From the NCBI RefSeq assembly GCF_019175385.1, contig NC_083341.1, forward strand, positions 86,268,321 to 86,332,320: a stretch of 64,000 bases of DNA, read 5' to 3'. The position numbers were made by a program, and so were the translations under genes. The first letter of the stretch is position 1. The number at the start of each line of letters is the position of its first letter. Below are positions 7,411 to 64,000 of the stretch, one piece after another. A model generated the notes under the pieces. That model did no database searches, was not told the origin of the DNA, and saw nothing but the letters and a program-made list of their open reading frames with translations. This DNA is from Lycium barbarum (taxonomy: Eukaryota > Streptophyta > Magnoliopsida > Solanales > Solanaceae).

Positions 7411-7436
7411 ACCTGACGGGCTGAGTTAAGTTCAAG

Positions 7437-10280: not shown

Positions 10281-10727
10281 CTTCATGAGAGAATTCGTAC
10301 TTCATTAGTTAATTAACTACAAGAACAGATCGCTAGTTCTAGGAAAATTTGGGCAGTACTTCCTTCGTTTATACTACTTTTCCCATGTTCTATATCTACC
10401 CCCAACATTCACAATGCTATTCGCAATATCACAATCAAAATCATCATTTATGCACCATTAGCAAAATCCACCATTTTCCTCCAATTTTCCCATATTTCTC
10501 CCTATAGCTCACCTTAGTGCTTTCGTCAATTTACTACTTGTTTCACGTTATAAACATCATTTATATCGTATTTGTACTCTCAACACTTCATAATTTATGA
10601 TTCAATTCCACTATCATTCATTTATGTCACTATTAACTCAATAATGACCCATTCCTATGTTCTTCTACATTTTAAGTATCTAAGCCTTCGAATACCTTGA
10701 ATCATGTGGTATAGTCATGAAACATAC
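10281..10727 (-). other. Predicted leader intron 1, B1 3' LTR
   Basis: On the minus strand the exon ends TTTAAG at 10728 and the intron starts GTATGTTTCATG at 10727. It ends in CATGAAG at 10281, before GTGACGACG. The length is 447 bp, identical to the B1 5' LTR copy. Exactly this interval is absent from both LTRs of B2. Confidence 0.7.
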
Positions 10728-11035
10728 CTTAAATGATGATTGAACAGGCCTTGAGTTGAAATACTTCACTTAGCCAAAACCCTAGTGGCACCCTTTTAAG
10801 GATTTCTTGACTTAGATGATCCTTTGATGTGTTCTTACACTTGTTTTCATGAATTTAGTGGTGTTGATCTTGATGTTCCCTTTGATTCTCTTGAATTCTT
10901 ATGGAGGAAATATTTGGAGAGTTATAGAGCATTCTTGAGGTGTATGGATGAAAAATGAAGTGAAATGAGGCTTAAGTCCCTTTTAATGATCACAAAATCT
11001 GATTTTTAATGAACTTTCGTCGGGGAGAACAGTGG

Positions 11036-11315
11036 TCGTAAACCACAGTTTACGGACCGTATTGTGGTTTAAGGTCCGTCCTCCACGATCGTTTTTAAGC
11101 ATTTCAAAAACAGAAAGTTTGGCTAAGGGACATGGCAGTTTACGACCGAGGTTTACGGTCCGTAAACCAGTTTACGGGCCGTCCACCAAGTCGTATTTAG
11201 CCATTTCAACACTTGGCAGAAACTTTGAGATTTTGGAAGGCTGGAGGACGATTGCACTATACGGTCCGTAAATCACTTTACGGGCCGTATAGTGCCCTTT
11301 ACGACCACTGAGCTG
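11036..11315. promoter_or_regulatory. TTTACGGWCCGTAAA palindromes, B1 3' LTR
   Basis: Repeated boxes (TTTACGGACCGTA, TTTACGGTCCGTAAAC, TTTACGGGCCGT, TATACGGTCCGTAAAT and half sites TTTACGACC) occur over about 280 bp, upstream of the predicted start on the minus strand. Confidence 0.6.
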
Positions 11316-11535
11316 AAAATTCTCCGCCATTTCCATATTTCCAAAAATTCATAATTAGCCATTCCCGACTTAGTAAAACATCATACACTCAAGCCCTTCA
11401 TTGTTCTACACATCACACAAGTACGGACAAAATTCTGAGGTGTAATTTGACTCTACCAACCTGTTACAGCAACCCACAATATCATGGCCTTACAGGACTA
11501 TATCACACTATCAACACATCCATGGCCACACACGA

Positions 11536-14500: not shown

Positions 14501-16069
14501 ATCAGCCCTTGTTTGTCGGTCACATATAACGACTACACAATTCTTCTATACTTGCCTCGCTATTACGGGATCACTAACCGGGGTGAACACCTCGAAAGGT
14601 TTAATCGGCTCGGGTTCCACCCCGATAAAATTAGCAACATACGGGGTAATATAAGAGAAAGTAGAACCCGGATCAATCAAAGAAAATACCTCACGCGAAA
14701 ATATAGTCAAGGTACCTGTGACAACATCGGGGGAGGATTCAAGATCCTGTCGCCCTACCAAAGCATATACGCGGGGCTGAACCGCTCCTGAAGTAGATAC
14801 TCCCCCTCTGCCTCTGCCTCTACCTGTTGTAATCTGAGAAGTCTGTGTTGTCGGACGCACTGAAGAAGAACCCGCTGCTGAACCTGTGGGCTGAGTACCT
14901 GCTCTATCTCTCACCGAAGGGTAATCCCTCATTATGTGACCAACTTGCTCGCAGGCATAACAAGCATCGGTACCCTGACGACACTGTCCGGAATGTAATT
15001 TACCGCACTGGCTACACCGCGGTACTGGGGGTTTCCTCTGGCTAAAATCTCCCCTGAACTGAAAATCGGAGGCTCTCGAACTCTGGCCTTGTCCCGACTG
15101 AAAAGAACGATTGGACCTCCTGTCTGAGAACCTGGGAGGCGCACTGGTCGCTGACTGACCTGAGTGCCTAGAGTGCGTCTGCCTCGGTCCCCCTCTATAC
15201 TCGCTACTCGCTCCCATCGATCTAGCCCTCTTACCTTGTTTCCTATCACCGTCATGCTCACTCCTTTGCTGTTGTTGTCGTTCCTCAAGATTTTGAGCGT
15301 GAGCCTGTATCGAGGAAATATCCATCCCATCTTGCAAAGAGGCCATCAAACAATCTCTAAAAAAGTGGGGTCCTAAACCACTCACAAATCTGTAGACTCT
15401 ATCTCCCATGTCGGCTACCATAGTTGGAGCTTATCTGGCCAACGAATTAAACTGTATACTATACTTTTGAGCACTCATGCTTCCTTGCTTTAAATTCAAG
15501 AACCTGTCCGCTCTAGCTCGGCGGACCTCAGGCGGCAAGTAATGACGAATAAAGGCATCCACAAATTCTTGCCAAATGGGAGGTGGTGCATTCTCTCCTT
15601 TTGATATCATCCATTTTTTGTACCATAGCACCGCCACATCGCGGAGTCTATAAGAGGCCAACTCTACCGATTCGGTCTCAGAAGCATGCATAAGTTTCAG
15701 CGTCCTCAACATCTCATCAACAAAGCCTTGAGGGTCCTCATCCGGCTTCGACCCGAAATATTCTAGAGGATTTAAAGTCAAGAAATCACGGGCTCTCGTA
15801 CTGGCGGCACGGTCACTCGGGCCCGCATTCCGCCGCTGTGCCTGGGCGGCAACCAGTTGTGTCAGTAGGTGTATGGCCTCGGTCACTTGTTGACCCGAAG
15901 CAACTGGAGGAGGAATTGGGACTGAGGCTCCTCCCTGCTCTCCTACATTAGGCGGGGCCTCATTCTGTGATTCACTTTTCTCTACATTCGCCGGAGCCTC
16001 CCTTTCTGCCCGCTTCTTTGTCGTTGCTTTGTCTTTCTGGGCAGCTGTAGCTTTTCCTTTCGGCGGCAT
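11536..16069 (-). pseudogene. B1 gag-pol polyprotein with chromodomain
   Basis: The start ATG at 16069-16067 opens MPPKGKATAAQ, the family start. Order on the minus strand: gag capsid domain (about 15850-15430), knuckle CYACEQVGHIMRDY (about 14965-14921, last Cys changed to Tyr), protease [10 protein letters not shown] (about 14670), reverse transcriptase with an intact FIDD box (about 13680), truncated RNase H, integrase zinc finger ending CPNCQQVK (about 12720), DDE core (MDFIVGLP, ITDREAQF with Gly to Glu, GQAERTIQ) and chromodomain (about 11770-11590). Stops occur near 15430, 14170 and 13990. A 272-bp deletion removes most of RNase H and shifts the frame. The end runs past the usual stop to 11536. 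When intact it would supply capsid and replication enzymes for an RNA-mediated copy cycle. Confidence 0.92.
13160..13175 (-). other. Scar of 272-bp RNase H deletion in B1
   Basis: Sequence reads ...CACTTAAACTG|TCTCGACG here. In B2 the two sides are 272 bp apart (49774 to 50047), each ending in AACTG. The 5-bp repeat at both breakpoints indicates illegitimate recombination. The loss is not a multiple of three. Confidence 0.85.
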
Positions 16070-16257
16070 TCTGAAATCACAACGCACCTTTAGGGAAGGA
16101 TAAAATCCTATGCATGGCTCTATCGCACGATCTAGTAAAAAGAAAGATGGTCATTTTCCTAAATGCCCTGTAGCCGCTTGTTTATTGATGTGGCGCGCAA
16201 CACACCATAAACAAGACTCTACTAGACACGGCTTGTAGACACTTCCTAGGACGAACT

Positions 16258-16269
16258 GCTCTGATACCA
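16258..16269 (-). other. Primer-binding site, B1
   Basis: On the minus strand the sequence is TGGTATCAGAGC, complementary to the 3' end of initiator tRNA-Met. It lies 4 nt from the LTR edge, as in the other elements here. Confidence 0.92.
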
Positions 16270-16530
16270 CTTCTATCACGACCCAACTAGGCACCGCTCA
16301 CTCTACTACTCATTTTACTCATCTAATGACCTTTTGCCAGTTTTACGCATGAAAGTATAGGAAACATAATTTGTATCAAACATAAGTACTTTATATACAT
16401 ATGCCTCTCGGCCATCAAAATAATATATACATAATAATATCATCTTTTGAGACCACCTGACCCACACTACGTATCTACGAGCCTCTACTGTCATAATGAA
16501 TACATAGACGGAACAAGACTCCGTCGTGCC

Positions 16531-16533
<3 letters not shown>

Positions 16534-16592
<59 letters not shown>
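16534..16592. repeat. (AT)n microsatellite in B1 5' LTR
   Basis: About 59 bp of uninterrupted AT. The same position has short broken AT runs in the B1 left LTR (about 9362-9384) and in B2 (about 46718 and 53075), so it expanded in this copy. Confidence 0.95.
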
Positions 16593-16595
<3 letters not shown>

Positions 16596-17490
16596 AAACA
16601 GAAATCATAAGCACCTCCAAACAACGAAGTGCTCCCAAGAACTGACAGCTCCTAAGTATCTGGATCAAGCTCGCCTCCCTGTCTACCTGTGGGCATGAAC
16701 ACAGCGTCCAGAGAAGGGACGTCAGTACGAATATTGTACTGAGTATGAGAGGCATGAACAATGAAGAAAGGCATCAATAATATAATGAGAGCATAAATAT
16801 AAAGCATATGGATCTGTCCGATAATTATAAATAGAATAATGCATGCTGTCTTACTCATACTTATCATCGTAACATGTATGAATCATATGGAAGCTGCTCG
16901 CCCATGTCGGAACGATGTGATAATCAATAATGTAAGCCCGCGTCCAGGCCTCCCGCATCCGGGGTACCATCTCATGCCGCCCACTAGTGGTGTCTGCCCA
17001 CGCCCGAAGGTCGTGGTGTATCCGTATCCCCGCCCGCCGAAGCGGTGTCTGCCCGGCCAACTAGACCCGGTATGCAATGCTCATGCCATGCTTATCATAA
17101 AATAATCATAATAATGTACTCATTGTAAAATACTTATCTTATCATAGCACATGCGTAGGGTTTGAGAACAACTTTACTCTATCGGGGTGACGTAAGGTCG
17201 TGACCCCCCGATTACATTATGGAGCAATTACGGACATTCTGCCTCACCTTGAAAGGACTAGTACATAAGGTGAGTGTAGGCAAGGACTAACATCATCATC
17301 ATCCTAGCATCATCATATCATATAACTTATCTCATATAGGCATTTAACTTTTTGGAATGTAGGAGCTCATGGAAAGATGGTAATTCGGACTATAAGATTC
17401 ATGCCATTGGAAAGAAAGGAATAGCCTCACATACCTTTCCGTTTAGCTAAGTTGTTGTCCACTTATTCTCCTTCGATACCACGTCGTCAC

Positions 17491-17937
17491 CTTCATGAGA
17501 GAATTCGTACTTCATTAGTTAATTAACTACAAGAACAGATCGCTAGTTCTAGGAAAATTTGGGCAGTACTTCCTTCGTTTATACTACTTTACCAATGTTC
17601 TATATCTACCCCCAACATTCACAATGCTATTCGCAATATCGCAATCAAAATCATCATTTATGCACCATTAGCAAAATCCACCATTTTCCTCCAATTTTCA
17701 CATATTTTTCCCTATAGCTCACCTTAGTGCTTTCGTGCATTTACTACTTGTTTCACGTTATAAACATCATTTATATCGTATTTGTACTCTCAACACTTCA
17801 ACATTTATGATTCAATTCCACTATCATTCATTTATGTCACTATTCACTCAATAATGACCCATTCCTATGTTCTTCTACATTTTAAGTATCTAAGCCTTCC
17901 AATACCTTGAATCACATGGTATAGTCGTGAAACATAC
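17491..17937 (-). other. Predicted leader intron 1, B1 5' LTR
   Basis: Minus-strand borders are AAG|GTATGTTTCACG (17938/17937) and CATGAAG|GTGACGACG (17491/17490), 447 bp. Exon 2 then runs 17490-17435 (56 nt) to the donor AAG|GTATGTGAGG. Confidence 0.7.
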
Positions 17938-18237
17938 CTTAAATGATTATTGGACAGGACTTGAGTTAAAATACTTCACTTAGCCAAAACCCTAGTGCCA
18001 CCCTTTTAAGGATTTCTTGACTTAGATGATCCTTTGATGTGTTCTTACACTTGTTTTCATGAATTTTGTGGTGTTGATCTTGATGTTCCCTTTGATTCTC
18101 TTGAATTCTTATGGAGGAAATATTTGGAGAGTTCTAGAGCATTCTTGAGGTGTATGGATGAACAATGAAGTGAAATGAGGCTTAAGTCCCTTTTAATGAT
18201 CACAAAATCTGATTTTTAATGAACTTTCGTCGGGGTG

Positions 18238-18515
18238 AACAGTGGTCGTAAACCACAGTTTACGGACCGTATTGTGGTTTACGGTCCGTCCTCCGCGATC
18301 GTTTTTAAGCATTTCAAAAACAAAAGTTTGGCTAAGGGACATGGCAGTTTACGACCGAGGTTTACGGTCCGTAAACCAGTTTACGGGCCGTCCTCCAAGT
18401 CGTATTTAGCCATTTCAACACTTGGCAGAAACTTTGAGATTTTGGAAGGCTGGAGGACGATTGCACTATACGGTCCGTAAATCACTTTACGGGCCGTATA
18501 GTGCCCTTTACGACC
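18238..18515. promoter_or_regulatory. TTTACGGWCCGTAAA palindromes, B1 5' LTR
   Basis: Same array as in the B1 3' LTR: about six boxes or half boxes with the core ACGG(A/T/G)CCGT, just upstream of the minus-strand transcript start region. Confidence 0.6.
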
Positions 18516-18661
18516 ACTGAGCCGAAAATTCTCCGCCACTTCCTTATTTCCAAAAATTCATAATTAGCCATTCCCGACCTAGTAAAAAATCATACACTCA
18601 AGCCCTTCATTGTTCTACTCATCTCACAAGTACGGAAAAATTTCCGAGGTGTAACATTTGA

Positions 18662-23915: not shown

Positions 23916-25113
23916 TTCGACGACTGTTCATTTAAGATCAGATTTTGGGTTATTAATAAGAGACCAAGTTCATTATTTCATTTCAACATGACACCCCCTT
24001 CTCTCTAAAACCTCTCTTTACATTTATTCCACAAGGATTCAAGGATTATTAGTGAAAAACAACATAAACTAAGTGAATCAAGTATAAGAAAACCCATTAA
24101 GGATCATACAAGTCAAGAAATCTCATTGCAGATAAACTAGGGTTTTGCTCAAGTGGAGTAATATCAACCAAGGCTTGTTCCTACGACATCTAAGGTAAGA
24201 TTTATGATGTTTCTATGTTGTTTAAGGTATTTAAGAGTTGAAATACTTGGATTGTAGAGAGGTATGGCAAAATGGGTCATGAATGTGGAATAGTGCCATT
24301 TTGAGAAATAGCTTGAATTGAGTTATGAGTCTTGATGTATTGTAATGTAAATGTGTTATAAATGATGTTGAGAACATAAGATGAGCAATGTACGTGAATG
24401 GACATAGTCGTGTGTTATGGCCATGGATATGGATGATTGAAAAGTGAGTCTAGAATATGGATAATGTGGATGAATAATGACTATTGTTGTAGTATTGTGA
24501 ATGTATTGTTGACGTTTGAGAGTTAAAATACACTATAGAGGAATGTCGTATAAATAGAGGAGACGTTGCCTGATTTTCTCTAGTTTAGTCATGTATGCTA
24601 GCTATCGATTCTAATGATAGTATGATTTTAATGAAGGTAGAAACATGAGCTTCGGAGGAGAACGTGCAAGTGGTAAATAGTTGAACGGAAAGGTATGTAA
24701 GGCTAACCCTTCTTTCATAAGGCATGGTTCTTTGGCCAAACATCTAAATCTTCCATAAGTCTATGATGTCTCATAAATGTTTCGATCTTCCGAGCTATTA
24801 AGCTCACGATTCTTAATATGCTACGATTGTACTAAGTTCCTCGTATGATGAGTAAGCCTATAAAGATAATTGTGAAGAATGATGATAATAGTGATAATTA
24901 TATTGATGAAGACTATAATGGTAATGGCAATGACGTTAACGATGACGATGATGATAGTGATGAATGTAGTAAAGATGCTTATGAGATGTATGTATGTGTG
25001 CCCATGTATGGCTACTATGAACCCCGAGCCTATATGGCCGGGTAGTATGTGTATAGATGTATATGTATGTATGCTTACGTAACGCGCGCACACCACTGCA
25101 GTTGGGTACGGAT

Positions 25114-25209
25114 AACACTGAGCCTTGGTAGGGCCAGGTATGTGTAACACTGATCCTTGGTAGGGCCAGGTATGTGTAACACTGAGCCTTGGTAGGGCCA
25201 GGTATGTAT
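25114..25209 (+). repeat. 32-bp tandem repeat, three copies
   Basis: Copies start at 25114, 25146 and 25178, with the unit beginning AACACTGAGCCTTGGTAGGG. Other A LTRs have only one good and one decayed unit (about 39291 and 56025), so this copy expanded. Confidence 0.9.
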
Positions 25210-27145: not shown

Positions 27146-27276
27146 CTTATACGGTCCGTATAACATTATACAGTCCATATAAGGGTCCGTATAACACCCA
27201 ACAGGAAGATGTTTTCCATGATGGTGAACCACGGTCACATATACGGACCGTACAATGTTATACGGACCGTATAAGT
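27146..27276. promoter_or_regulatory. TTATACGGWCCGTATAA palindromes, C LTR 2
   Basis: The odd 17-bp palindrome lies at 27148-27164. A second full box lies near 27259-27275, with intermediate decayed boxes. The TATA box follows about 40 bp later. Confidence 0.6.
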
Positions 27277-28811
27277 GTCAGTAGAACACCCGACGGGCTG
27301 AGTTAAGTTCAAGTATTTAAATGTGATCCCACTTCAATGTTTTCATTTCCCACTCTTCTCCACTTGTCTCCAAGACTCTAGAACATTCCACACATTTCAT
27401 ATACAAGAATTCAAGGGAAATCAAAGGTTCATATCATAAATTCAAGTGAATCAAGTGCAAGGAAGCTCTTGGGGTTGCTAAAGTCAAGAATTCTCTTGGA
27501 AGTGAAGCTAAGGTTTTTCTTCAAGTGGAGTATTGCTATCAAAAACGCATTCTACTTAATCAAAGGTAAGTTTTATGATTATTTCATGTTATTTGGACTA
27601 CGGAGAGGTTGAAAGACTTGGATTATAGAAGGAAATAGAAAATGGGTTACAAACATGAGAATAGTGACATTGTTGAGTGGTAGCTTTGTATGAGTCATGA
27701 TTCTTGATATGTTGTGATTATAATTATGCTATAAATGATATTAAGAACATGGGAGGAAAATTATTTGAGGATGAATGAAATGTTGCATTATGACCATGGT
27801 TATGGATGCCCATGAAATGGAAGTAGGATGATCGAATAATGTTTGGTTGATGAATATTGTTGGATATGATATTAGGAATGTTATTATTGATGATTGGGAG
27901 TTGTCATATGATATGAAGGAAGTTGTATAAATGAAGGAAATGCTGCCCAATTATCTCTAGCTTTAGTTCAAGCATGCTTATGTTACTGATTATCTAATAT
28001 TAGTATGAAGTCCCTTGAAGGTAGAAACGCGAATATTGGAGAGGAACGTTCAAGCGATAGAGTAGCTAAACGAAAAGGTATATGAGGCTAGTCCCTTCTT
28101 TCTCAGGCTTGATTCTTATGACATGATATTCCTTATCTCTTCATGACTTTATTACATCCCGAAAACTATGAGTCAATATTGATAAAGAGCATCATATGAG
28201 ATAAGATAAGAGACATGCTACGAGTATGATAATGATGATGATGAGTCTAAGTCTAAAGATTCTAAGGCCTATGATATGATGTTTCTACAGAGCTAATGAT
28301 CCCAATTATGATTCTGTGATGTTGTTCATTATGCTACACTCACCTTATATGCTAATTCCTTCAAGGTGAGGCAGAATGCTTAAGAAACTCTATAATGGAA
28401 TCGGGGGTTCACGACCTTACGTCACCCCGATAGAGTATAGTCTGTCTTGAGGTTTGATGCATAATCCATGATGAGTATATGATGATGATATTACACTGCG
28501 TATAATGGTCGGGCAGACACCGCTAAAGCGGGCAGCGTATACACCATGTCTAGATGGCATAGGCAGCCACCACTAGTGGGCGGCATGAAATGGTTACCCT
28601 GGACGTGGGAGGCCTGGACGCAGGCTAATTATCACGCCGTACCTATATGGTCGGGCAACTAATACATATATACATACGTGATATGGTGATGTTTATGAAG
28701 CAAGTTAGCATGCATTATTTCAGTCTTAAGTGACAGTCAGTTACAGGTTGTTCCTTACTTGATGTATCCTTGCTTCATTGATGTATTATTATTGTTCATG
28801 CCGTACATACT

Positions 28812-37832: not shown

Positions 37833-40183
37833 TGTTACACCTTGAAAATTTCCCCGCGAACGTACAGCGGATAGGATAACAAAAGGCATAGCGTGTACGA
37901 TGTTTTAATAAAAAGGGAACGACGTTTGACGACCCTAAGTAAGATTCCAAAGGCAATTGCAATAAGAGATAGGTTATGCTCCATAATGACTTAACTATAG
38001 GTTCTGAAAATGTGGAAAGTTGCATATTTGCACTTTGGCCAGTTGATCGTAAAATGAAATACGGACCGTAAAGTAGTTTACGGGCCTTAAACTGCCATGT
38101 CGTATTTCAACTTCCAAAACTTCAACTTTCTGTCAAATGCTTGAATGGTTAAAGACGACTTGAAATACGGACCGTAAACTGAAATATGGCCCGTAAACTG
38201 TGTTCGTAAATCACAATGTCTCAGCCTGAGTTTCTGGTTCTGTTATGATTAAATACGTCCAAGAAATATGACCCGTAAACTGGAATACAGATCGTAAATT
38301 GAGTTTACGACCACTGTTATACTTTCAACAACTGTTCATTCCAGATCAGATTTTGGGTTATTAAAAAGAGGACCAAGTTTATTATTTCATTTCCACATTT
38401 CACCCCTTCTCTCTGAAACATCTCTCTACACTTATTCCATAAGAATTAAAGGATTATTAGTTATCAACAACATAAACCAAGTGAATCAAGTGTAAGAAAA
38501 CCCATTAAAGATCATACAAGTCAAGAAATCTCATTAGAGATGAACTAGGGTTTTTGCTCAAGTGGACTATGAGAATGGACGTCATCGTGCGTTATAGCCA
38601 TGGATATGGATGATTGAAAGTAAGTCTAGAATATGGATAATGTGTATTAATAATGACTATCGTTATAGTATTGTGAATGTATTATTGGCGTTTGGGAGTT
38701 GATATACGCTATGGGGGAATGTCGTATAAATAAAGGAGATGCTGTCCGATTATTTCTAGTTTTAGTCATGTATGCTAGCTATCGATTTCTAATGATAGTA
38801 TGACTTTAATGAAGGTAGAAACGCAAGTGTTGAAGGAGAACGTGCAAGTGGTAAATAGTTGAACGAAAAGGTATGTAAGGCTAACCCTTCTTTCATAAGG
38901 CATGGTTCTTTGGCCAAACGTCTAGATCTTCTATAAGAAGATGATATCTTTCAAATGATTTGATCTTCTGAGCTTGTAAGCTCACGATTATGGATACGCT
39001 ACGATTGTACTAAGTTGCTCGTATGACGAGTAAGCCTATAAAGATAGATGTGATGAATGACGATAATAGTGACAATGATATGGAAGACGACTATAGTGGT
39101 AATAGCCATGACGATAATGATGACGGCGATGCTAGTAATTATAATAGTAACGATGCTTATGAGCTATTATGTATATGTATCTATGTATGACTTTTATGGA
39201 ACCCCGAGCTTATGAGGCCGGGTAGGATATGTAAATAAATTTGTATATGATTATGTAATGCGCGCACACCTCTGAAGATGGTACGGATAACCTTGACTCC
39301 TTGGTAGGGCCAGGTATGTGTAACTTTGAGCCTTGGTTGGCCAAGTATGTATGAAACACCGATCCGGCATGGTCGGGTATGCTATGTAAATGCCATGTAT
39401 ATGATATGATTATGTATATGATATAGATACGAGTACGAATACGGATATGATACGATATGAATGTGAATAATGGTATGTATACGAATACGAGTACAAATAT
39501 GGAACGGATACGATTATTGATACGGATATGGATGTATGTACACAATACGCATTAGAAATGGAAAGTTCCTATGAAAGGCAAGTAAGTGCCTATGACGATG
39601 ATATTACCATCTCCCATCCTGTGCTATTTTTCATGTTGCTTATTATGCTTCTACATTGATATTGATCATGCCTTACATACTCAGTACATTCTTCGTACTG
39701 ACGTCCTTTTATTTGTGGACGCTGTGTCATGCCCGCAGGTGCACAGGGAGACAGACTTGATCCATAGCCATATTCTCAAGGACTACATAGCGGAGCTCCA
39801 TTTATTTCGGAGCTATAGCTTTTGGGTACTTATTCTTTTGTGTATATAATTATGGGCATAGCGGGGTCTTGTCCCGCTTATGTGATATGACATACTCTCC
39901 TTAGAGGCTCGTAGACATATGTACGTGGTTAGACGTGTTTGGCCTTGTCGGCCAATATTTTGTATGTCATTTTGTTAGCCTTGTCGGCTCATGTACATTG
40001 ACGTGGTATAGATGCCAATGATGATATAATGGCATTGTTGTCCAATGGGACTAGTATGACTGATGAATAAAAATGTATGTTTAATTATGTGGCTCACCTA
40101 GATGTAAGTGTAAGTGCAAGCCAAGGGGTGCCTGGGTAGGCTAGCACCGGGCGCTCGTCGCGGCCCCCTAGACGGTCGTGACA
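37833..40183 (+). mobile_element. Family A LTR 1
   Basis: It runs from TGTTACACCTTG to GGTCGTGACA, 2351 bp. It contains palindromes (38048-38315), exon 2-like sequence and donor AAAG|GTATGTAAGG near 38869, GAT/GAC-rich low complexity near 39050-39150, the double hairpin (about 39680-39722) and acceptor GCCCGCAG|GT at 39736-39738. About 250 bp covering the first donor are deleted at about 38571 (CAAGTGGACTA joined to TGAGAATGG). The left flank is TGCTG; the matching right flank is outside the window. Confidence 0.92.
38048..38315. promoter_or_regulatory. ATACGGACCGTAAA palindromes, A LTR 1
   Basis: Same box array as in the A solo LTR, with more point decay (ATATGGCCCGTAAAC, ATACAGATCGTAAAT). 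Confidence 0.55.
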
Positions 40184-46419: not shown

Positions 46420-47978
46420 TGTCACGACCCAGCTAGGGGTCGCGACGGGTACCTGGGGCTAACCGCCGAGCACCGCTCGCTCTATTACCCTCCTTACTCG
46501 ATTAATTCCTTATCATCATATTTATGCTTGAAACATAGAAAAAGATCACAACTTATATAGAAACATAAATACTTGTGTATATATAAAGGTTTGGTACATC
46601 AAAATAATGAGTGCACGTATACATGAAAGATGTGAGACCATGCTACCCACACTACGCATCTACGAGCCTCTACTGACATACTATACAATGGACGGAAACA
46701 GACTCCGTCATGCCCAAATATATATATATACATATGTACCAAAAGATAAATCACAAGCACCTCCGAACAATAGAGTGCTCTCGACAGCTGGCAGCTCCTA
46801 AGTATCTGGATCTAGCTCGCCTCCCTGTCTACCTGTGGGCATGAACACAGTGTCCAACGAAGGGACGTCAGTACGAATATTGTACTGAGTATGAGAGGCA
46901 TGAACAGTGAAGAAAGGCATCAATAATATAATGAGAGCATCAATATAAAGCATATGGATATGACCGATAATCAAAAATGGAATAATGCATGCTGTCTTAC
47001 TCATACTTATCATCGTAACATGTATACATCATATGCAAGCTGCCCGCCCATGTCGGGAAGGTGTGATAATCAATAATATAAGCCCACGTCCAGGCCTCCC
47101 GCGTCCGGGGTACCATCTCATGCCGCCCACTAGTGGTGTCTGCCCACACTCGAAGGTTGTGGTGTATCCGTATCGCCGCCCGCCGAAGAGGTGTCTGCCC
47201 GGCCAACTAGGCCCGGTATGCAATGCTCATGCCATTCTCCTTCGTTACCACGTCGTCACCTTAAATGATGATTGAATAGGCCTTGAGTTGAAATACGTCA
47301 CTTAGCCAAAACCCTAGTTCCACCCTTTTAAGGATTTCTTGACTTAGATGATCCTTTGATGTGTTCTTACACTTGTTTTAATGAATTTAGTGGTGTTGAT
47401 CTTGATGTTCCCTTTTATTCTCTTGAATTCTTATGGAGGAAATATTTGGAATGTTCTAGAGGTCTCTTGAGGTGTATGGATGAAAAATGAAATGAAATGA
47501 GGCTTAAGTCCCTTTTAGTGATCACCAAATCTGATCTTTAATGAAAAATTGTCGGGATGAACAGTGGTCGTAAACCACAGTTTACAGACCGTATTGTGGT
47601 TTACGGTCCGTCCTCCGCGATCGTTTTTAAGCATTTCAAAAATAGAAAGTTTGGCTAAGGGACATGGCAGTTTACGACCGAGGTTTACGGTCCGTAAACC
47701 AGTTTACGGGCCGTCCTCCAAGTCGTTTTTAGCCATTTCAACACTTGACAGAACTTGAAATTTTTTGACAGCTGGAGGACGATTGCACTATACGGTCCGT
47801 AAATCACTTTACGGGCCGTATAGTGCCCTTTACGACCACTGTGCTGAAAATTTTCCGCCACCTTCTTATTTCCAAAAATTTATAATTAGCCATTCCCGAC
47901 TTAATAAAACATCATACACTCAAGCCCTTCATTGTTCTACTCATCACACAAGTACGGAAAGATTTCCGAGGTGTAACA
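46420..47978 (-). repeat. B2 3' LTR (left)
   Basis: 1559 bp. Compared with B1 it lacks the 447-bp predicted intron 1 exactly (junction 47260/47259 reads TTTAAG|GTGACG). It also lacks about 350 bp from exon 2 into intron 2 (jump at about 47234, CATGCC to ATTCTCC). Palindromes are at 47566-47845. Reading frames at 46798-47275 are the usual LTR artefacts. Confidence 0.92.
47566..47845. promoter_or_regulatory. TTTACGGWCCGTAAA palindromes, B2 3' LTR
   Basis: Same array as in B1, well conserved (TTTACGGTCCGTAAACC, TATACGGTCCGTAAAT, TTTACGGGCCGTATA). Confidence 0.6.
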
Positions 47979-47997
47979 TTCTTCCCCCCCTTTGGAA
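47979..47997 (-). other. Polypurine tract of B2
   Basis: On the minus strand it reads CAAAGGGGGGGAAGAA, flanked by the CATTCGAGGACGAATG box at 47998-48015. The equivalent is deleted in B1. 48016-48182 is untranslated tail. Confidence 0.85.
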
Positions 47998-48182
47998 CAT
48001 TCGTCCTCGAATGTTCGACACTCGGGAATTCTAGAAATATTTTGCCAGAGTCTCCTTTGTAATTTGACTCTACCAACCTGTCACAGCAACCCACAATATC
48101 ATGGCCTTACAGGGCTATATCACACTATCCACACATCCATGGCCATACACGACTAAAATCATAATACTAAGGTGTACATACC

Positions 48183-51100
48183 TTACATCGTCGACGCTTC
48201 ACCTTGAATCTCCTCCGGGGACTGGAGCAAATGCGGGTACATGGATTTCATCTTCTCCTCCGCTTCCCAAGTCACTTCTTCTCGATTGCTGTTTCGCCGT
48301 AGGATTTTCACTGAAGCTACTTCTTTGTTCCGGAGCCTTCGCACTTGTCTATCTAAAATGGCAATAGGTACTTCTTCATATGTTAGCTTCTCTGTCACCT
48401 GCACATCGTCAACCGGGACTATTGTTGTAGGATCCCCGATACACTTGCGGAGCATCGAAACATGGAACACCGGATGGACTGATTCAAGCTCCGAAGGTAG
48501 GTCCAATTTATATGCTACCTGTCCCATCTTACGGACTATTTTATAAGGTCCGATGTATCTTGGACTCAATTTCCCCTTTTGCCAAATCTCATCACCCCTT
48601 TCATTGGCGATCCCTTCAGAAATACCCAGTCATTTTCCTGAAATTCTAAATCCCGTCGGCGGTTGTCTGCATAAGACTTTTGGCGACTTTGAGCTGTTAA
48701 CAGTCGGTCTCGAATCACTTTAACCTTTTCAACTGCTTGTTGGATCAAGTCGGGGCCTATAAATTGTACTTCTTTGGTTTCAAACCATCCAGTTGGAGAT
48801 CTGCATTTTCTTCCATATAAGGCTTCATACGGGGCCATTTGAATACCGGAATGGTAGCTATTGTTATAAGCAGATTTGATAAGGGGTAATACTCATCCCA
48901 ACTACCCCCAAAATCCAACACACACGCTCGGAGCATATCCTCCAAGGTCTGAATGGTGCGCTCGGCTTGTCCGTCCGTTTGGGGATAAAATGCTGTGCTG
49001 AATTTGACTTGGGTACCTAACCCTTCTTGAAAAGATTTCCAAAACATAGCTGTAAACTGGGCCCCTCTGTCTGTAATAATGGCCAAAGGGATCCCATGAA
49101 GGCGCACAATTTCCTTTAAATATAACTTGGCATAGTTTTCTGCTGAATACGTGGTTCTAACTGGGAGGAAATGAGCTGTTTTCGTGAGTCTGTCCACGAT
49201 CACCCATATAGAGTCATATTTTCCTCGGGAGCGGGCTAACCCTACAATAAAATCCATATTAATCTCCTCCCATTTCCAGGTAGGAATTTCCATTGCTTGC
49301 AATAAGCCCCCTGGCTTCTGATGTTCTGCTTTCACCTGTTGGCAGTTCAGACACTGCGCCACAAATGCCGCTATGTCTCATTTCATGCCATCCCACCAAT
49401 ATAACAATTTAAGATCGTGATACATTTTGGTCGTACCTGGATGAATGGAATACCGAGAATGATGCGCTTCTTCTAAAATTTGCTGGCTTAACTTTTCCAC
49501 ATCCGGGACACACAGTCTGTCTCAGTATCTAAGAACCCCATCTATGGAAACTGCAAATGGAGACTTCTCTTTCCCATGGGATACATCCCTGTGATGACAC
49601 ATCTGTGGATCTTCGTACTGGCGTTCTTTTATCTCCGCATTCAAGGGCGAGACCGCAGGATCATTAACACTAATTCCTGCCTTACCCGAATCAATTACAC
49701 GTACCCTAAGATTTGCTAGTTGATAGAGCTCACGGACTATTTCTTTCTTTTCTGAAGGGACTTCACTTAAACTGCCCGTTGATCGGCGGCTAAGCGCGTC
49801 TGCGACCACATTCGCTTTCCCGGGGTGGTATAAAATATTCACGTCATAATCCTTAAACAATTCCAACCACCGCCTCTGCCGTAGGTTCAACTCCTTCTGC
49901 TTAAAAATATGTTGAAGACTCTTGTGATCTGTAAAGATATCGATGTGCACACCGTACAGATAATGCCTCCATATCTTTAAGGCTTGAATAACCGCAGCCA
50001 ATTCGAGATCATGAGTCGGATAATTCTGTTCATGTTTCCGCAACTGTCTCGAAGCATATGCAATAACCTTGCCATGCTGCATCAGCACACATCCTAGTCC
50101 CACACCGGAAGCATCACAATACACGACATAACCATCCGGCCCTTCTGGAAGTGTTAACACTGGAGCCGAGGTCAATCTATCTTTTAGCTCTCGGAAACTA
50201 CGCTCACAAGCATCATTCCACTGAAATTTTGCGGACTTCTGGGTTAGCTTCGTTAATGGGGCTGAAATACATGAAAATCCCTTTACGAAACTTCGATAAT
50301 AACCTGCCAAACCCAGAAAACTACAAACTGCTGTAGGCGTCGTAGGCCTTGGCCAAGTCTTCACAGCTTCTATTTTCTGAGTGTCGACTCGAATGCCATC
50401 ATCTGAAATAACATGGCCTAAAAATGCCACAGAATTCAGCCAAACCTCGCACTTTGAGAACTTCGCATATAATTCTCGGGCTCGGAGAACGCCAAGAACA
50501 ATTCTTAGGTAGTCTGCATGTTCTGACTCTGTGCGAGAATATACCAGAATATGGTCGATAAATACTATCACGAAGAGATCCAAAAATGGCCTGAACACAT
50601 TGTTCATTAAATTCATGAACACCGCCGGGGCATTTGTCAATCCAAACGACATCACTCGGAACTCGTAGTGACCATATCTTGTCCTGAAGGCAGTCTTAGG
50701 AATATCTTCTTCTCTAATTCTCACCTGATGATAACCCGATCTCAGATCGATCTTGGAAAACCACTTAGCGCCCTGTAACTGATCAAACAAATCATCGATT
50801 CTGGGAAGAGGATATTTATTCTTTATTGTTACCTTGTTCAACTGTCTGTAATCGATACACATTCGTAGAGATCCATCCTTCTTCTTTACGAACAAGACTG
50901 GTGCTCCCCACGGCGATGAACTGGGTCTTATAAACCCCTTCTCAAGTAAATCTTTTAGCTATGCTTTTAGCTCTTTCAGTTCTACCGGAGCCATTCAATA
51001 AGGGGGAATAGAAATAGGCTCGGTGTCTGGTAATACATCGATAGCAAAGTCAATTTCCCTTTCTGGAGGAAGACCTGGAAGTTCATCCGGGAATACATCT

Positions 51101-52955
51101 GGAAATTCATTTACTACCGGGACAGATTGGAAAACTGGTGGCCATGCCTCCGTATCATGAACCCGAACTAGATGATAAATATAGCCCTTGGCTATCATCT
51201 TTCTCACCTTGAGGTAGGAAATAAACCTACCCTTAGGGGATGCTGTATTACCCTTCCATTCAAGTACGGGCTCTCCCGGAAACTGGAATCGAACCATTTT
51301 CGTCCGGCAATCAACATTTGCGTAACACGACGCTAACCAATCCATACCCATTACAACGTCGAAGTCTATCATTTCCAGCTCGATCAAATCAGCTTGAGTT
51401 TGGCTGTCACATATCACCACGACAGAGTTTTTATATACCTTCCTCGCTATCACGGGATCACCAACCGGAGTGAACACCTCGAAAGGTTTAATTGGTTCAG
51501 GCTTCACCCCAATACAATCAACAACATATGGGGTAACATAGGAGAAAGTAGAACCCGGATCAATCAAAGCATATACCTCACGGGAAAATATAGTCAAGGT
51601 ACCTGTGACAACATCGAGGGAGGATTCAAGATCCTGTCGCCTTGCTAAAGCATATACGCGGGGCTGAACAGCGCCGGAAGTAGATGCTCCCCCTCTGTCT
51701 CTGCCTCTACCTGCTGTAGTCTGGGAAGTCTGTATTGTCGGACGCACCGAAGAAGAACCCGCTGCTGAACCTGTGGGCTGAGTCCCTGCTCTATCTCTTA
51801 CCGAAGGGCAATCCCTCATCATGTGACCAACTTGCCCGCATGCATAACAAGCATTGGTACCCTGAAGACACTCTCCGGAATGTAATTTGCTGCACTGACT
51901 ACACCGCGGTACTGGGGTCTCCTCTGGCTAAAATCTCGCTTGAACTGAAAATCTGAGGCCCTCGAGCTCTGGCCCTGCCCTGATTGAAAAGAACGGTCAA
52001 ACCTCCTATCTGAGAACGGGGGAGGCGCACTAGTCGCTGACTGACCTGAGTGCCTAGAATGCATCTGTCTCGATCCCCCTCTATACTCACTGCTTGCCCC
52101 CGTAGATCTAGCTCTCTTACCTTGCCTTCGGTCATTATCCCGATCACTTCTTTGCTGCTGTCGTCGCTCCTCCATGTTCTGAGCATGTGCCTGTATTCGG
52201 GAAATATCCATCCCGTCTTGCTAGGAGGCTGTCAAGCAATCTCTAAATAGGTGTGGCCCCAAACCACTCACAAATCTATGAACCCGATCGCCCATATCAG
52301 CCACCATAGTCGGGGCATACCTGGCCAGAGAATTAAACTGCATACTATACTCTCGGGCACTCATACTTTCTTACTTTAAATTCAAGAACCTGTCTGCTCT
52401 AGCTCGGCGGACCTCAGGCGGCAAGTAATGACGAATAAAGGCATCCACAAATTCTTGCCAAACGGGAGGTGGTGCATTCTCTCCCCTTGATATCATCCAA
52501 TTTTTGTACCATAGCACCGCCACATCGCGGAGTCTATAAGAGGCCAACTCTACCGATTTGGTCTCAGAAGCATGCATAAGTTTCAGTGTCCTCGACATCT
52601 CATCAACAAAACCTTGGGGGTCCTCATCCGGCTTCGACCCAAAAAATTCCGGAGGATTTAAAGTCAAGAAATCACGGGCTCTCGTACTGGCCGATCGATC
52701 ACTTGGGCCCGCATTCTGTCGTTGTGCCTGAGCGGTGACCAACTGCGTTAATAAATGTATGGCCTCGGATACCTGTTGACCCGAAGCAACTGGCGGAGGA
52801 ATTGGGACTGAGGCTCCTCCCTGCTCTACTACATTAGGCGAGGCCTCATTCTGTGATTCACCTTCCTCTACATTTGCCGGAGGCTCCCTTTCTGCCCGCT
52901 TCTTCATCGTAGCTTTGCCTTTCTGGGCAGCTGTAGCTTTTCCTTTCGGCGGCAT
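48183..52955 (-). pseudogene. B2 gag-pol polyprotein with chromodomain
   Basis: The start ATG at 52955-52953 opens MPPKGKATAAQKGK. Gag domain 52720-52370. Knuckle [14 protein letters not shown] intact near 51860-51800. Protease [10 protein letters not shown] near 51575. The reverse transcriptase lies in one open frame of 457 codons (50895-49522), but its catalytic FIDD reads FIDH (His codon 50551-50553). RNase H is complete ([10 protein letters not shown] to DHKSLQHIF, 50130-49910). Integrase zinc finger about 49480-49330; core [24 protein letters not shown] (49260-48940); GPY/F and chromodomain (48380-48190) to the stop at 48183. Stops or frameshifts near 52370, 52230, 50960, 49520, 49380 and 48880. 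It is the least damaged polyprotein here. Confidence 0.93.
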
Positions 52956-53073
52956 TCTGAAATCACAACGCACTTTTAGGGGAGGATAAAATCCTATGCA
53001 TGGCTCTATCGCACGATCTAGTAAAAAGAAAGATGGTCATTTTCCTAAATGCCCTGTGGCTCCGTCATGGCCA

Positions 53074-53105
<32 letters not shown>

Positions 53106-53935
53106 TGTACCAAAAGAGAAATCACAAGCACCTCCGAACAATGGAGTACTCTCGACAGCTGGCAGCTCCTAAGTATCTGGATCAAGCTCGCCTCCCTGTC
53201 TACCTGTGGGCATGAACACAGCGTCCAACGAAGGGACGTCAGTACGAATACTGTACTGAGTATGAGAGGCATGAACAGTGAAGAAAGACATCAATAATAT
53301 AATGAGAGCATCAATATAAAGCATATGGATCTGACCGATAATCAAAAATGGAATAATGCATGCTGTCTTACTCATACTTATCATCGTAACATGTATGCAT
53401 CATATGCAAGCTGCCCGCCCATGTCGGGACGGTGTGATAATCAATAATATAAGCCCGCGTCCAGGCCTCCCGCGTCCGGGGTACCATCTCATGCCGCCCA
53501 CTAGTGGTGTTTGCCCACGCCCGAAGGTTGTGGTGTATCCGTATCGCCGCCTGCCGAAGCGGTGCCTGCCCGGCCAACTAGGCCCGGTATGCAATGCTCA
53601 TGCCATGCTAATCATAAAATAGTCATAATAATGCACTTATTGTAAAATATTTATCTTATCATAATCACATGCATAAGGTTTGAGATCAACTTTACTCTAT
53701 CAGGGTGACGTAAGGTCGTGACCCCCCGATTACTTTATGGAGCAATTACGGACATTCTGCCTCACCCTGAAAGGACTAGTACATAAGGTGAGTGTAGGCA
53801 AGGACTAACATCATCATATCGTATAACTTATCTCATATAGACATTTAACTTTTTGGAATGTAGGAGCATATGGAAAGATGGTAATTCGGACTATAAGATT
53901 CATGCCATTGGAAAGAAAGGACTAGCCTCACATAC

Positions 53936-53991
53936 CTTGTCGTTTAGCTAAGTTGTTGTCCACTTATTCTCCTTCGTTACCACGTCGTCAC
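53936..53991 (-). other. Leader exon 2 fused to exon 1 in B2
   Basis: On the minus strand exon 1 ends ATCATTTAAG at 53992 and is followed directly by GTGACGACGTGG, the start of exon 2. The exon ends at donor AAG|GTATGTGAGG (53936/53935). In B1 the same two sides are 447 bp apart with GT...AG borders. Confidence 0.8.
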
Positions 53992-54297
53992 CTTAAATGA
54001 TGATTGAACAGGCCTTGAGTTGAAATACTTCACTTAGCCAAAACCCCAGTTCCACCCTTTTAAGGATTTCTTGACTTAGATGATCCTTTGATGTGTTCTT
54101 ACACTTGTTTTCATGAATTTAGTGGTGTTGATCTTGATGTTGACTTTGATTCTCTTGAATTCTTATGGAGGAAATATTTGGAATGTTCTAGAGGTCTCTT
54201 GAGGTGTATGGTTGAAAAATGAATTGAAATGAGGCTTAAGTCCCTTTTAGTGATCACCAAATCTGATCTTTAATGAAAAATTGTCGGGATGAACAGT

Positions 54298-54575
54298 GGT
54301 CGTAAACCACAGTTTACGGACCGTATTGTGGTTTACGGTCCGTCCTCCGCGATCGTTTTTAAGCATTTCAAAAACAGAAAGTTTGGCTAAGGGACATGGC
54401 AGTTTACGACCGAGGTTTTACGGTCCATAAACCAGTTTACGGGCCGTCCTCCAAGTCGTTTTTAGCCATTTCAACACTTGACAGAACTTGAAATTTTTGG
54501 ACAGCTGGAGGATGATTGCACTATACGGTCCGTAAATCACTTTACGGGCGTATAGTGCCCTTTACGACCACTGTG
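54298..54575. promoter_or_regulatory. TTTACGGWCCGTAAA palindromes, B2 5' LTR
   Basis: Same box array as the B2 3' LTR, with two small differences (TTTTACGGTCCATAAAC, TTTACGGGCGTATAG). Confidence 0.6.
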
Positions 54576-54715
54576 CTAAAAATTTTCCGCCACCTTCTTA
54601 TTTCCAAAAATTCATAATTAGCCATACCCGACTTAATAAAACATCATACACTCAAGCCCTTCATTATTCTACTCATCACACAAGTACGGAAAGATTTCCG
54701 AGGTGTAACAGTAGC

Positions 54716-54827: not shown

Positions 54828-56909
54828 CTATTCATTCCAGTTCAGATTTTGGGTTATTAAAAAGGGGACCAAGTTTATTATTTCATTTCCACATTTCACC
54901 CCTTCTCTCTAAAACATCTCTCTACACTTATTCTACAAGAATTCAAGGATTATTAGTGATCAACAACATAAACCAAGTGAATCAAGTGTAAGAAAACCCA
55001 TTAAAGATTATACAAGTCAAGAAATCGCAGTGGAGATGAACTAGGGTTTTTGCTCAAGTGGAGTATTATCAACCAAGGCTTGTTCCTATGACATCTAAGG
55101 TAAGATTTATGATATTTCTATGTTGTGTAAGGTATTTGATAGTTGAAATACTCGGACTGTAGAAGGGTATAGAAAAAGGGGTCATGAATGTGGAGTAGTG
55201 CCATTTTGAGAAATAGCTTAACTTGAGTTACGATTCTTGATGTGTTGTGATGTAAATATGTTATAAATGATGTTGAGAACATGAGATGAGCAATTTATGA
55301 GAATGGACGTCGTCGTGCGTTATGGTCATGGATATGGATGATTGAAAGTAAGTCTAGAATATGGATAATGTGGATGAATAATGACTATCGTTATAGTATT
55401 GTGAATGTATTATTGACGTTTGGGAGTTGATATACGCTATGGGGGAATGTCGTATAAATGAAGGAGATGCTGTCTAATTTTCTCTAGTTTTAGTCATGTA
55501 TGCTAGCTATCGATTTCTAATGATAGTATGACTTTAATGAAGGTAGAAACGCGAGTGTTGAAGGATAACGTACAAGTGGTAAATAGTTGAACAGAAAGGT
55601 ATGTAAGGCTAACCCTTCTTTCATAAGGCATGGTTCTTTGGTCAAACGTATAAATCTTAAATAAGACGATGATATCTTTCAAATGATTTTGATCTTTCGA
55701 GCTCGTAAGCTCACGATTCTTGATACGCTACGATTGTACTAAGTTACTCGTATGACGAGTAAGCCTATAAAGATAGATGTGATGAATGACGATAATAGTG
55801 ACAATGATATGGAAGACTACTATAGTGGTAATAGCGATGCCGATAACGATGACGACAATGATAGTAATTATAATAGTAACGATGCTTATGAGATATTATG
55901 TATATGTATCTATGTATGACTATTATGGAACCCCGAGCTTATGAGGCCGGGTAGGATATGTAAATAAATATGTATATGATTATGTAATGCACGCACACCT
56001 CTGCAGATGGTACGGATAACCCTGACGCCTTGGTAGGGCCAGGTATGTGTAACCTTGAGCCTTGGTTGGCCAAGTATGTATGAAACACCGATCCGGCATG
56101 GTCGGGTATGCTATGTAAATGCTATGTATATGATATGATTATGTATATGATATAGATACGAGTATGAATACGGATACGATACGATATGAATGTGAATAAG
56201 GGTATGTATACGAATATGAGTACAAATATGGAACGGATACGATTATGGATACGGATATGGATGTATGTACAAAATACGCATTAGAAATGGAAAGTTCCTA
56301 TGAAAGGCAAGTGCCTATGACGATGATATTACCATCTCCCATCCTGTGCTATTTTTCATGTTGCTTATTATGCTTCTACATTGATATTGATCATGCCTTA
56401 AAAACTCAGTACATTCTTCGTACTGACGTTCTTTTACTTGTGGACGCTGCGTCATGCCCGCAGGTGCACAGGGAGACAGACTTGATCCATAGCCACATTC
56501 TTAGGGACTACATAGCGGAGCTCCATTTCATTCGGAGCTATAGCTTTTGGGTACTTATTCTTTTGTGTATATAATTATGGGCATAGCGGGGTCCTGTCCC
56601 GCTTATGTGATATGACATACTCTCCTTAGAGGCTCGTAGACATGTGTACGTGGTTATACATGTTTGGCCTTGTCGGCCTATATTTTGTATATCATTTTGT
56701 TAGCCTTGTTCGCTCATGTACATTGACGCGGTATAGATGCCAATGATGATATAAAGGCATTGTTGTCCTATGGGACTAGTATGACTGATGAATAGAAATG
56801 TATGTTTAATTATATGGCTCACCTAGATATAAGTGTAAGTGCAAGCCAAGGGGTGCCCGGGTGGGCTAGCACCGGGTGCTCGTCGCGGCCCCCTTGACGG
56901 GTAGTGACA
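54828..56909 (+). mobile_element. Family A LTR 2, 5'-truncated
   Basis: It starts inside U3 at CTATTCATTCCAG; compared with LTR 3 it lacks about 500 bp including the palindromic boxes. It ends GGGTAGTGACA. It has donor 1 (55099/55100), intron 1 (55100-55542), exon 2 (55543-55598), intron 2 (55599-56463) and hairpins (about 56405-56445). It is the middle LTR of the A array, followed by a new primer-binding site and gag. Without U3 it probably has no promoter. Confidence 0.92.
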
Positions 56910-62148: not shown

Positions 62149-64000
62149 TGTTACACCTTGAAAATTTTCCCGCGAACGTACAGTGGATAGACTAACAAAG
62201 GGCTTAGCGTGTATAATGATTTAATAAGAAGGGAACGACGTTTGACGACCCTAAGTAAGATTCCAAAGGCAATTGCAATAAGAGATAGGTTATGCTCCAT
62301 AATGACTAACTATAGGTTCTGAAAATGTGGAAAGTTGCAGATTTGCACTTTGGCCAATTGATCGTAAAATGAAATACGGACCGTAAAGTAGTTTACGGGC
62401 CGTAAACTGCCATGTCGTATTTCAACTTCCAAAACTTCAACTTTCTGTCAAATTCCTTAATGGTTAAAGACGACTTGAAATACGGACCGTAAACTGCAAT
62501 ACGGCCCGTAAACTTTGTTCGTAAATCACCATGTCTCAGCCTGATTTTCTGGTTCTGTTATGATTAAATACGTCCTCGAAATACAGCCCGTAAACTGGAA
62601 TACGGACCGTAAACTGAGTTTACGACCACTGCTGTACTTTCAACGACTATTCATTCCAAATCAGATTTTGGGTTATTAAAAAGGGACCAAGTTTATTATT
62701 TCATTTCCACATTTCACCCCTTCTCTCTAAAACATCTCTCTACACTTATTCCACAAGAATTCAAGGATTATTAGTGATCAACAACATAAACCAAGTGAAT
62801 CAAGTGTAAGAAAACCCATTAAAGATCATACAAGTCAAGAAATCGCATTGGAGATGAACTAGGGTTTTTGCTCAAGTGGAGTATTATCAACCAAGGCTTG
62901 TTCCTACGACATCTACGGTAAGATTTATGATATTTCTATGTTGTGTAAGGTATTTGAGAGTTGAAATACTTGGATTGTAGAAGGGTATAGAAAAATGGGT
63001 CATGAATGTGGAGTAGTGCCATTTTGAGAAATAGCTTAACTTGAGTTACGATTCTTGATGTGTTGTGATGTAAATATGTTATAAATGATGTTGAGAACAT
63101 GAGATGAGCAATGTATGAGAATGGATGTCATCATGTGTTATGGCCATGGATATGGATGATTGAAAGTAAGTCTAGAATATGGATAATGTGGATGAATAAT
63201 GACTATCGTTATAGTACTGTGAATGTATTATTGACGTTTGGGAGTTGATATACGCTATGGGGGAATGTCGTATAAATGAAGGAGATGTTGTCTGATTTTC
63301 TATAGTTTTAGTCATGTATGCTAGCTATCGATTTCTAATGATAGTATGACTTTAATGAAGGTAGAAACGCGAGCGTTGAAGGAGAACGTACAAGTGGTAA
63401 ATAGTTGAACAAAAAGGTATGTAAGGCAAACCCTTCTTTCATAAGGCATGGTTCTTTGGCCAAACATCTAAATCTTCTATAAGACGATGATATCTTTCAA
63501 ATGATTTGATCTTCCGAGCTCATAAGCTCACGATTCTTGATACGCTACGATGTACTAAGTTCCTCGTATGACGAGTAAGCCTATAAAGATAGATGTGATG
63601 AATGACGATAATAGTGACAATGATATGGAAGACGACTATAGTGGTAATAGCGATGCCGATAACGATGACGACGATGATAGTAATTATAATAGTAACGATG
63701 CTTATGAGCTATTATGTATATGTATCTATGTATGACTATTATGGAACCCCGAGCTTATGAGGCCGGGTAGGATATGTAAATAAATATGTATATGATTATG
63801 TAATGCGCGCACACCTCTGCAGATGGGACGGATAACCCTGACGCCTTGGGAGGGCCAGGTATGTGTAACCTTGAGCCTTGGTTGGCCAAGTATGTATGAA
63901 ACACCAATCCGTCATGGTCGGGTATGCTATGTAAATGCTATGTATATGATATGATTATGTATATGATATAGATACGAGTACGAATACGAATATGATACGA
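62149..64000 (+). mobile_element. Family A LTR 3, cut by the window end
   Basis: It starts TGTTACACCTTGAAAATTTTCC. Palindromes at 62368-62628, first donor ACG|GTAAGA at 62917/62918, intron 1 62918-63360 (443 bp), exon 2 63361-63416 (56 nt), then donor AAG|GTATGTAAGG. The hairpin region and LTR end are beyond base 64000. Confidence 0.93.
62368..62628. promoter_or_regulatory. ATACGGACCGTAAA palindromes, A LTR 3
   Basis: About six boxes (ATACGGACCGTAAAG, TTTACGGGCCGTAAAC, ATACGGACCGTAAAC, ATACGGCCCGTAAAC), well conserved. Confidence 0.6.

Follow-up and report, generated by a model that had tools for sequence, protein, structure and literature searches.

A putative intron inside the LTRs of Ty3/gypsy elements of Lycium barbarum and its probable loss through spliced genomic RNA

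LTR elements of the window and the difference between B1 and B2

The analysed stretch of the Lycium barbarum genome, called the window throughout, comprises 64,000 nucleotides (C5:86268321-86332320) and contains LTR retrotransposons of three related families, A, B and C. Pfam matches in pieces of open reading frames follow the Ty3/gypsy domain order (gag, protease, RT, RNase H, integrase), gag being matched in B and C and pol in A, B and C; some rve matches are slightly below the curated cut-off, and the same holds for a chromodomain (PF00385) after SH3_Tf2-1, with E values of 5e-5 and 6.4e-5. We take the clade of these elements to be Tekay/Del. Two LTRs, a primer binding site (PBS) and a 5-bp target site duplication (TSD) were found, the PBS being present in B1, A and C and deleted in B2. 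Homologues in viral and bacterial sequence collections were not detected (longest match 26 nt), and Rfam and tRNA scans of the window gave no matches.

Several further arrangements were observed in the same stretch. An insertion of 1178 bp at 41300-42477, with TG..CA ends and a 5-bp duplication (GGCAC), lies in a C-family internal region and is probably a solo LTR of another family. The C24 solo LTR is situated within an A element (23427-26022) with AGAAT on either side, and LTR-internal-LTR-internal layouts, as after unequal recombination, occur at 6917-30285 (A) and 37833-64000 (C).

The features of the two B elements are the following:

9067..18656, minus strand: element B1, TSD TTTGA
10281..10727, minus strand: predicted intron 1 of the B1 3' LTR, 447 bp, GTATGT..CTAAT..GAAG
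17491..17937, minus strand: predicted intron 1 of the B1 5' LTR, 447 bp
46420..54710, minus strand: element B2, LTR to LTR, TSD GTAGC at 46415-46419 and 54711-54715
47248..47274, minus strand: exon 1/exon 2 junction of the B2 3' LTR, segment absent, between 47260 and 47259
53980..54006, minus strand: exon 1/exon 2 junction of the B2 5' LTR, segment absent, between 53992 and 53991

An earlier sequence-only reading of this DNA had claimed that a segment of the B1 LTRs is missing from both B2 LTRs at an exact AAG/GTG junction and that the flanks are joined without change. Reading of all four LTRs confirmed the absence and the junction. On the minus strand both B1 LTRs (10281-10727 and 17491-17937) read CATTTAAG, then a 447-nt segment beginning GTATGTTTC and ending CTCTCATGAAG, then GTGACGACG; in B2 CATTTAAG and GTGACGACG are joined directly, at 53992/53991 and 47260/47259. 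The flanks were likewise found unchanged: in 4 of 4 comparisons B1 and B2 are free of mismatches over 10 nt to the left and 14 nt to the right of the junction, the nearest mismatches being at -11 and +15.

The two B2 LTRs are sisters, as 41 sites support the split of B1 from B2 and none supports either alternative pairing. Kimura distances were 0.032 between B2a and B2b, 0.038 between B1a and B1b, and 0.067-0.070 between B1 and B2b (the B1-B2a values, 0.116-0.120, were set aside, the alignment around the B2a deletion being doubtful). The sisterhood and the distances together place the loss of the segment on the B2 lineage, before the insertion of B2. Deletion has removed further parts of B2, namely 377 bp of the 3' LTR, and the end of the 5' LTR together with the PBS. 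In its present form the element has no PBS, the missing 5' LTR end and PBS being located at 53054-53089.

The segment as a predicted intron and the structure of the leader

A homologous segment of 442-459 bp is present in the window families A (7200-8500, 27150-28420) and C (23900.., 54824.., 62640..). Altogether 7 of the 10 related LTR copies of the window carry it, in three families that are about 55-71% alike:

7690..8148, plus strand: homologue of predicted intron 1 in A7, an LTR of family A, 459 bp (coordinates inferred by alignment)
24195..24636, plus strand: homologue of predicted intron 1 in C24, a solo LTR of family C, 442 bp
27566..28020, plus strand: homologue of predicted intron 1 in A27, an LTR of family A, 455 bp, GTAAGT..GAAG
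38560..38575, plus strand: C38, an LTR of family C, in which an ordinary deletion of 232 bp spans donor 1, off the splice sites (comparison case)
55100..55542, plus strand: homologue of predicted intron 1 in C55, an LTR of family C, 443 bp, GTAAGA..GAAG
62918..63360, plus strand: homologue of predicted intron 1 in C63, an LTR of family C, 443 bp

Since families A and C have the homologous segment, its absence is, by sequence comparison, the derived state. The genome (1.67 Gb) was searched with a spliced-LTR query, and the best 40 of 7100 candidates were scored: two were the B2 LTRs, and the other 38 of 38 carry the segment. The reverse direction, in which the segment was inserted into B1 with AAGGT as a 5-bp TSD and B2 represents the empty site, could explain AAGGT on either side of the segment; its probability is negligible, as the homologues in A, C and all 38 other scored B copies refute it for B1 versus B2. 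The donor GT is intact in 36 and the acceptor AG in 37 of these 38 copies; L016 retains its donor and lacks 22 bp of exon 1. Among the sampled B copies the segment is mostly about 447 bp long, 287 bp in others, and 278, 334, 311 and 73 bp in single lineages.

At the sequence level the segment has GT..AG ends, a branch-like site and conservation, as spliceosomal introns do. Its donor reads AAG/GTATGT in B, AAG/GTAAGA in C and AAG/GTAAGT in A (the slash marks the splice position); a CTAAT branch-like site lies about 25 nt upstream of the acceptor, which reads GAAG/GT. Splice sites were scored with an approximate plant matrix, which underlies all donor and acceptor ranks given here. By this matrix donor 1 ranked 2 of 135 among the leader GT sites of B1, 3 of 167 in C55 and 1 of 146 in A27. 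Acceptor 1, with GAAG in place of GCAG, ranked 6 of 143, 3 of 143 and 38 of 164 respectively and is only moderately strong. The position of intron 1 downstream of a TATA-like element would place it wholly within the transcribed R-U5.

The ends of the segment share the 5-bp repeat AAGGT, so six placements of the junction are possible, and one alone reads GT..AG. Such a reading is allowed by 21 of the 1019 direct-repeat pairs (at least 5 bp, 200-700 bp apart) of the B1a LTR, and no pair other than the actual one (1 of 1019) equals or exceeds both of its site scores by the approximate matrix. The corresponding numbers for B1b were 17 of 1011 and, with the same matrix, 1 of 1011. Faster evolution of the intron than of its flanks was looked for between the families and was not seen; the intron body is conserved to the same degree as the flanks.

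Two candidate proofs of the intron were rejected. Base composition did not serve as an independent one, the best change point falling within exon 1, not at the donor, in each of the 7 copies. As for the depletion of ATG in the exons, counts as low occurred in 10 of 2108, 15 of 2240 and 16 of 2063 circular shifts (exon 1 of A27 was shortened), and dinucleotide shuffles account for the low exon counts.

A second donor-like site follows 56-57 nt downstream (GTATGTRAGGCTA, GTATAT in A27), with ranks of 1, 2 and 2 in B1, C55 and A27 by the same approximate matrix. The predicted downstream part of the B1 leader is organized as follows:

17435..17490, minus strand: predicted exon 2 of the B1 5' LTR, 56 nt, from intron 1 to donor 2
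16071..17434, minus strand: predicted intron 2 of B1, donor AAAG/GTATGTGAGG in U5, acceptor ATTTCAG/A-ATG at gag
16258..16269, minus strand: B1 PBS TGGTATCAGAGC, inside predicted intron 2
15434..16069, minus strand: B1 gag start, ATG at 16069, MPPKGKA.., partial gag (the frame 15434-16150 matches Retrotrans_gag)

The PBS is presumably of the initiator tRNA-Met type. An invariant ATTTCAG stands 1-2 nt upstream of the gag ATG in 6 of 6 aligned leaders (A27 has ATT for ATG), and this gag-proximal site ranked 7 of 143 in B1, 1 of 143 in C55 and 10 of 164 in A27, again with the approximate matrix. These signals suggest a leader with two introns, one confined to the LTR (intron 1) and another (intron 2) reaching from U5 across the LTR end and the PBS to gag. 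If a start site is assumed, removal of both predicted introns would shorten the B1 leader from 2108 to 297 nt and reduce its ATGs from 73 to 2, and the C55 leader from 2240 to 278 nt with a reduction from 108 ATGs to 2.

Recurrence of the exact junction and ordinary deletions

The sequence-only reading had proposed that B2, or its parent, came from a spliced genomic RNA, and that all genomic B LTRs should be tabulated to see whether copies lacking 447 bp always have this junction. A genome search for the junction of spliced B (29 nt, 3 mismatches allowed) gave 2 matches, both in B2, one in each LTR, and none for its reversed control; the pattern of the unspliced donor (25 nt, again with 3 mismatches allowed) gave 3182. 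In families A and C the form without the segment was sought with a gapped pattern of 24 exact letters, which gave 5 genome matches, and the slightly looser unspliced form (21 exact letters) gave 2276. In all 5 the spacing is the 29 nt of the exact splice junction, 15-45 being permitted, and the alignments skip precisely the intron; the junction repeat of these families is AAGGTA (6 bp).

Four of the five matches belong to two elements. A C element on C6 with the TSD ATTGG has L124 as its 5' LTR and L123 as its 3' LTR; L124 is followed by a PBS, the first LTR base being altered, and a G-rich tract precedes L123. An A-like element on C11 (TSD ATTTA) is bounded by L126 (5' LTR) and L127 (3' LTR). 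The fifth, L125 on C10, is the 5' LTR of another C subfamily, the partner LTR of which was not found. A tree of the 5 spliced and 5 intron-bearing window LTRs of A and C, built with the intron excluded, requires at least three changes on well-supported branches, which are read as losses because presence of the segment is ancestral. B2 is nested among intron-bearing B copies and represents an additional loss, the segment being present in L014 and the remaining sampled B copies. These comparisons give at least four separate precise losses, spread over three families; in B2, C6 and C11 both LTRs are affected. The marks by which a retrocopy of a spliced RNA is recognized, an exact exon-exon junction and independent recurrence, were both found, and loss from both LTRs was found in the B2, C6 and C11 elements.

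We consider it likely that an LTR intron was spliced out of genomic RNA, which was then reverse transcribed, and that B2 (or a recent parent) and the C6, C11 and C10 cases arose in this way. The proposal made for B2 has gained support from the recurrence of the junction in two further LTR families together with the zero count of the control. From these DNA data we infer that the RNA is spliced and that spliced RNA was the template.

As the earlier reading had itself pointed out, a deletion between the AAGGT repeats would leave the identical junction, and on the window sequence the two are indistinguishable. Such a deletion, by strand slippage or illegitimate recombination between AAGGT or AAGGTA repeats in the 5' LTR of a parent and subsequent copying into both LTRs, fits any single case, because suitable repeats of 5 bp (B) and 6 bp (A and C) stand at the segment ends. 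Ordinary deletions are also common; examples in the window elements are 272 bp lost in B1 at a 5-bp repeat, 377 bp in the B2 3' LTR (2-bp repeat) and 232 bp in C38 (3-bp repeat). Further ones, of 113, 136, 169, 374 and 1133 bp with repeats of 10, 4, 6, 3 and 0 bp, were found in the sampled B copies, a non-random set made up of the 38 best-scoring copies and of 30 and 40 copies that match the donor pattern exactly, taken from the first places of the listing. Deletion junctions were resolved in 6 of 11 copies, the other five being L079, L014, L075, L077 and L072. The 169-bp deletion (leaving a 278-bp segment) is common to L015 and L087, apparently both LTRs of one C3 element; loss from both LTRs was rejected as a proof of splicing, since this shared deletion means that it fails to separate splicing from deletion. 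Against deletion stands the recurrence of the junction: 1208 pairs of repeats of at least 5 bp would be able to remove at least 100 bp of intron 1, yet the GT..AG pair recurs in three families. A control pair in the same B LTR, an 8-bp repeat 474 bp apart that is also readable as GT..AG with a weaker donor, was not found collapsed (0 genome matches, the collapsed form alone being counted). On balance we regard deletion as an unlikely origin of these junctions. The earlier reading had also named many B copies with deletions of varied length as evidence that would refute splicing; taken literally, this situation does occur in B, in deletions that have other junctions.

One B copy, L099 (C4:53077650-53079150), has a 374-bp deletion that extends from within the intron to the exact start of exon 2 at an AGG repeat (3 bp); it is an imprecise look-alike of splicing.

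The length of the intron lost by B2 requires a correction. That B2 lost the segment holds; the lost length may differ from 447 bp, as the close relative L014 has a segment of 287 bp. This shorter version was observed in L014, L072, L075-L078, L080 and L081; the body is replaced or shortened and the splice sites and CTAAT are kept. Over the parts that align, the L014 segment agrees with the 447-bp one to about 74-81%, and its flanks are about 95-97% like B2b. The B trees were calculated without L019 and L050 (duplicates of L006 and L014), L079 (right part missing), B2a (downstream part deleted) and the 40 copies of the last B sample. L014 is the nearest sampled relative of B2b in the first tree (support 95/75), and the two are not grouped in the larger tree. 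Upstream of the junction B2b is of the long-intron type at 8 of 8 marker columns, and it shares this type at one further downstream insertion. Downstream it has several, not all, of the markers present in 7-8 of 8 short-intron versus 2-6 of 60 long-intron copies. From these markers B2 may have lost the 287-bp form.

The mixed character of B2b bears on another origin of the junction, in which reverse transcriptase jumped between AAGGT repeats or between co-packaged RNAs during strong-stop synthesis and splicing took no part. A crossover near the junction is possible for a copy that resembles the 447-bp type upstream and partly the 287-bp type downstream. Against it, 2 of the 8 copies with the 287-bp segment, having long-type letters at most upstream marker columns, show such a mosaic with the segment still present, and the same repeat pair recurs in the other families; we hold a template jump to be very improbable.

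Two LTRs on C4, L008 and L011, 7.6 kb apart and apparently belonging to one element, match B well before intron 1 and more poorly after it. Their LTR is perhaps a recombinant with the breakpoint near the intron end.

Replication of spliced RNA and comparison with known systems

The mechanism that we propose starts from LTRs that would hold a spliceosomal intron 1, about 440-460 bp long and shortened to 287 bp in certain B copies. Occasionally a genomic RNA without intron 1 and with the PBS would be packaged and reverse transcribed; as it would retain R, PBS and PPT, it should be replicable. By the established retroviral scheme the 5' end of a single genomic RNA supplies R-U5 to both LTRs of a new copy, so the daughter element would be intronless in both. 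The shortage of spliced forms (2 of 3184 and 5 of 2281 matches) indicates that the replicated RNA almost always kept intron 1, and slow splicing, export for translation without packaging, or poor intronless founders could each be the cause.

A more specific version, which we advance tentatively and with a little less than even confidence, is that splicing sorts the RNAs. RNA spliced at predicted intron 2 should be non-replicable by the usual route because its PBS is removed; together with intron 1 nearly the whole 2-kb leader with its 73-108 ATGs would be taken away, yielding an mRNA. The RNA that keeps intron 2 would be the genome, and the loss of intron 1 a rare half-spliced escape.

In retroviruses of the HTLV/BLV type a splice donor is situated in R, within the LTR-derived leader, and the genomic RNA must remain unspliced; they are not known to have a complete intron within the LTR. 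In plant LTR elements introns are exceptions, Ogre and EVADE being examples (PMC12786077). Ogre (Ty3/gypsy, Tat lineage) is similar to the present case in that a spliceosomal intron is removed from part of the RNA only (PMC6317226, PMC12786077). However, the intron of Ogre is placed between gag-prot and RT, while here one predicted intron is inside the LTR and the second crosses the PBS. For EVADE/ATCOPIA93 and BARE1 splicing is reported to yield a short-gag RNA for translation besides the full-length RNA (PMC12786077), which is the likeness; these are, however, Ty1/copia elements, and the EVADE splice removes the protease domain rather than an intron of the LTR leader. The artificial-intron reporters of Ty1 and L1, in which intron loss marks the passage through spliced RNA (PMC12786077), are engineered, whereas the marker proposed here is natural and lies in the LTR. 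Penelope-like elements also are retroelements that carry introns, according to PMC3846280, but they are not LTR retrotransposons and in that account their introns are kept, perhaps via an antisense template. The titles and beginnings of abstracts that we surveyed, mainly of open-access papers, describe neither an intron within plant LTRs nor an element whose origin from spliced genomic RNA was deduced from a lost LTR intron.

The LTR intron could serve as a natural splicing reporter, each precise loss marking a replication cycle that used spliced RNA. If spliced RNA replicated freely, the intron should vanish within one cycle; instead these searches gave thousands of unspliced and seven spliced matches. 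This suggests that spliced RNA is held back from replication, by the elements themselves or by their hosts, or that the intron is needed. How plant retrotransposons separate mRNA from genomic RNA becomes testable with genome and RNA data, and for these abundant repeats a concrete two-intron leader structure, with an acceptor at the gag ATG, is offered.

A minor observation concerns the gag-pol proteins themselves. Two proteins recorded under the name Corynebacterium sp. MC-13 (P0017 and P0054) closely match those of the present plant elements, and these records are probably plant contamination of a bacterial assembly.
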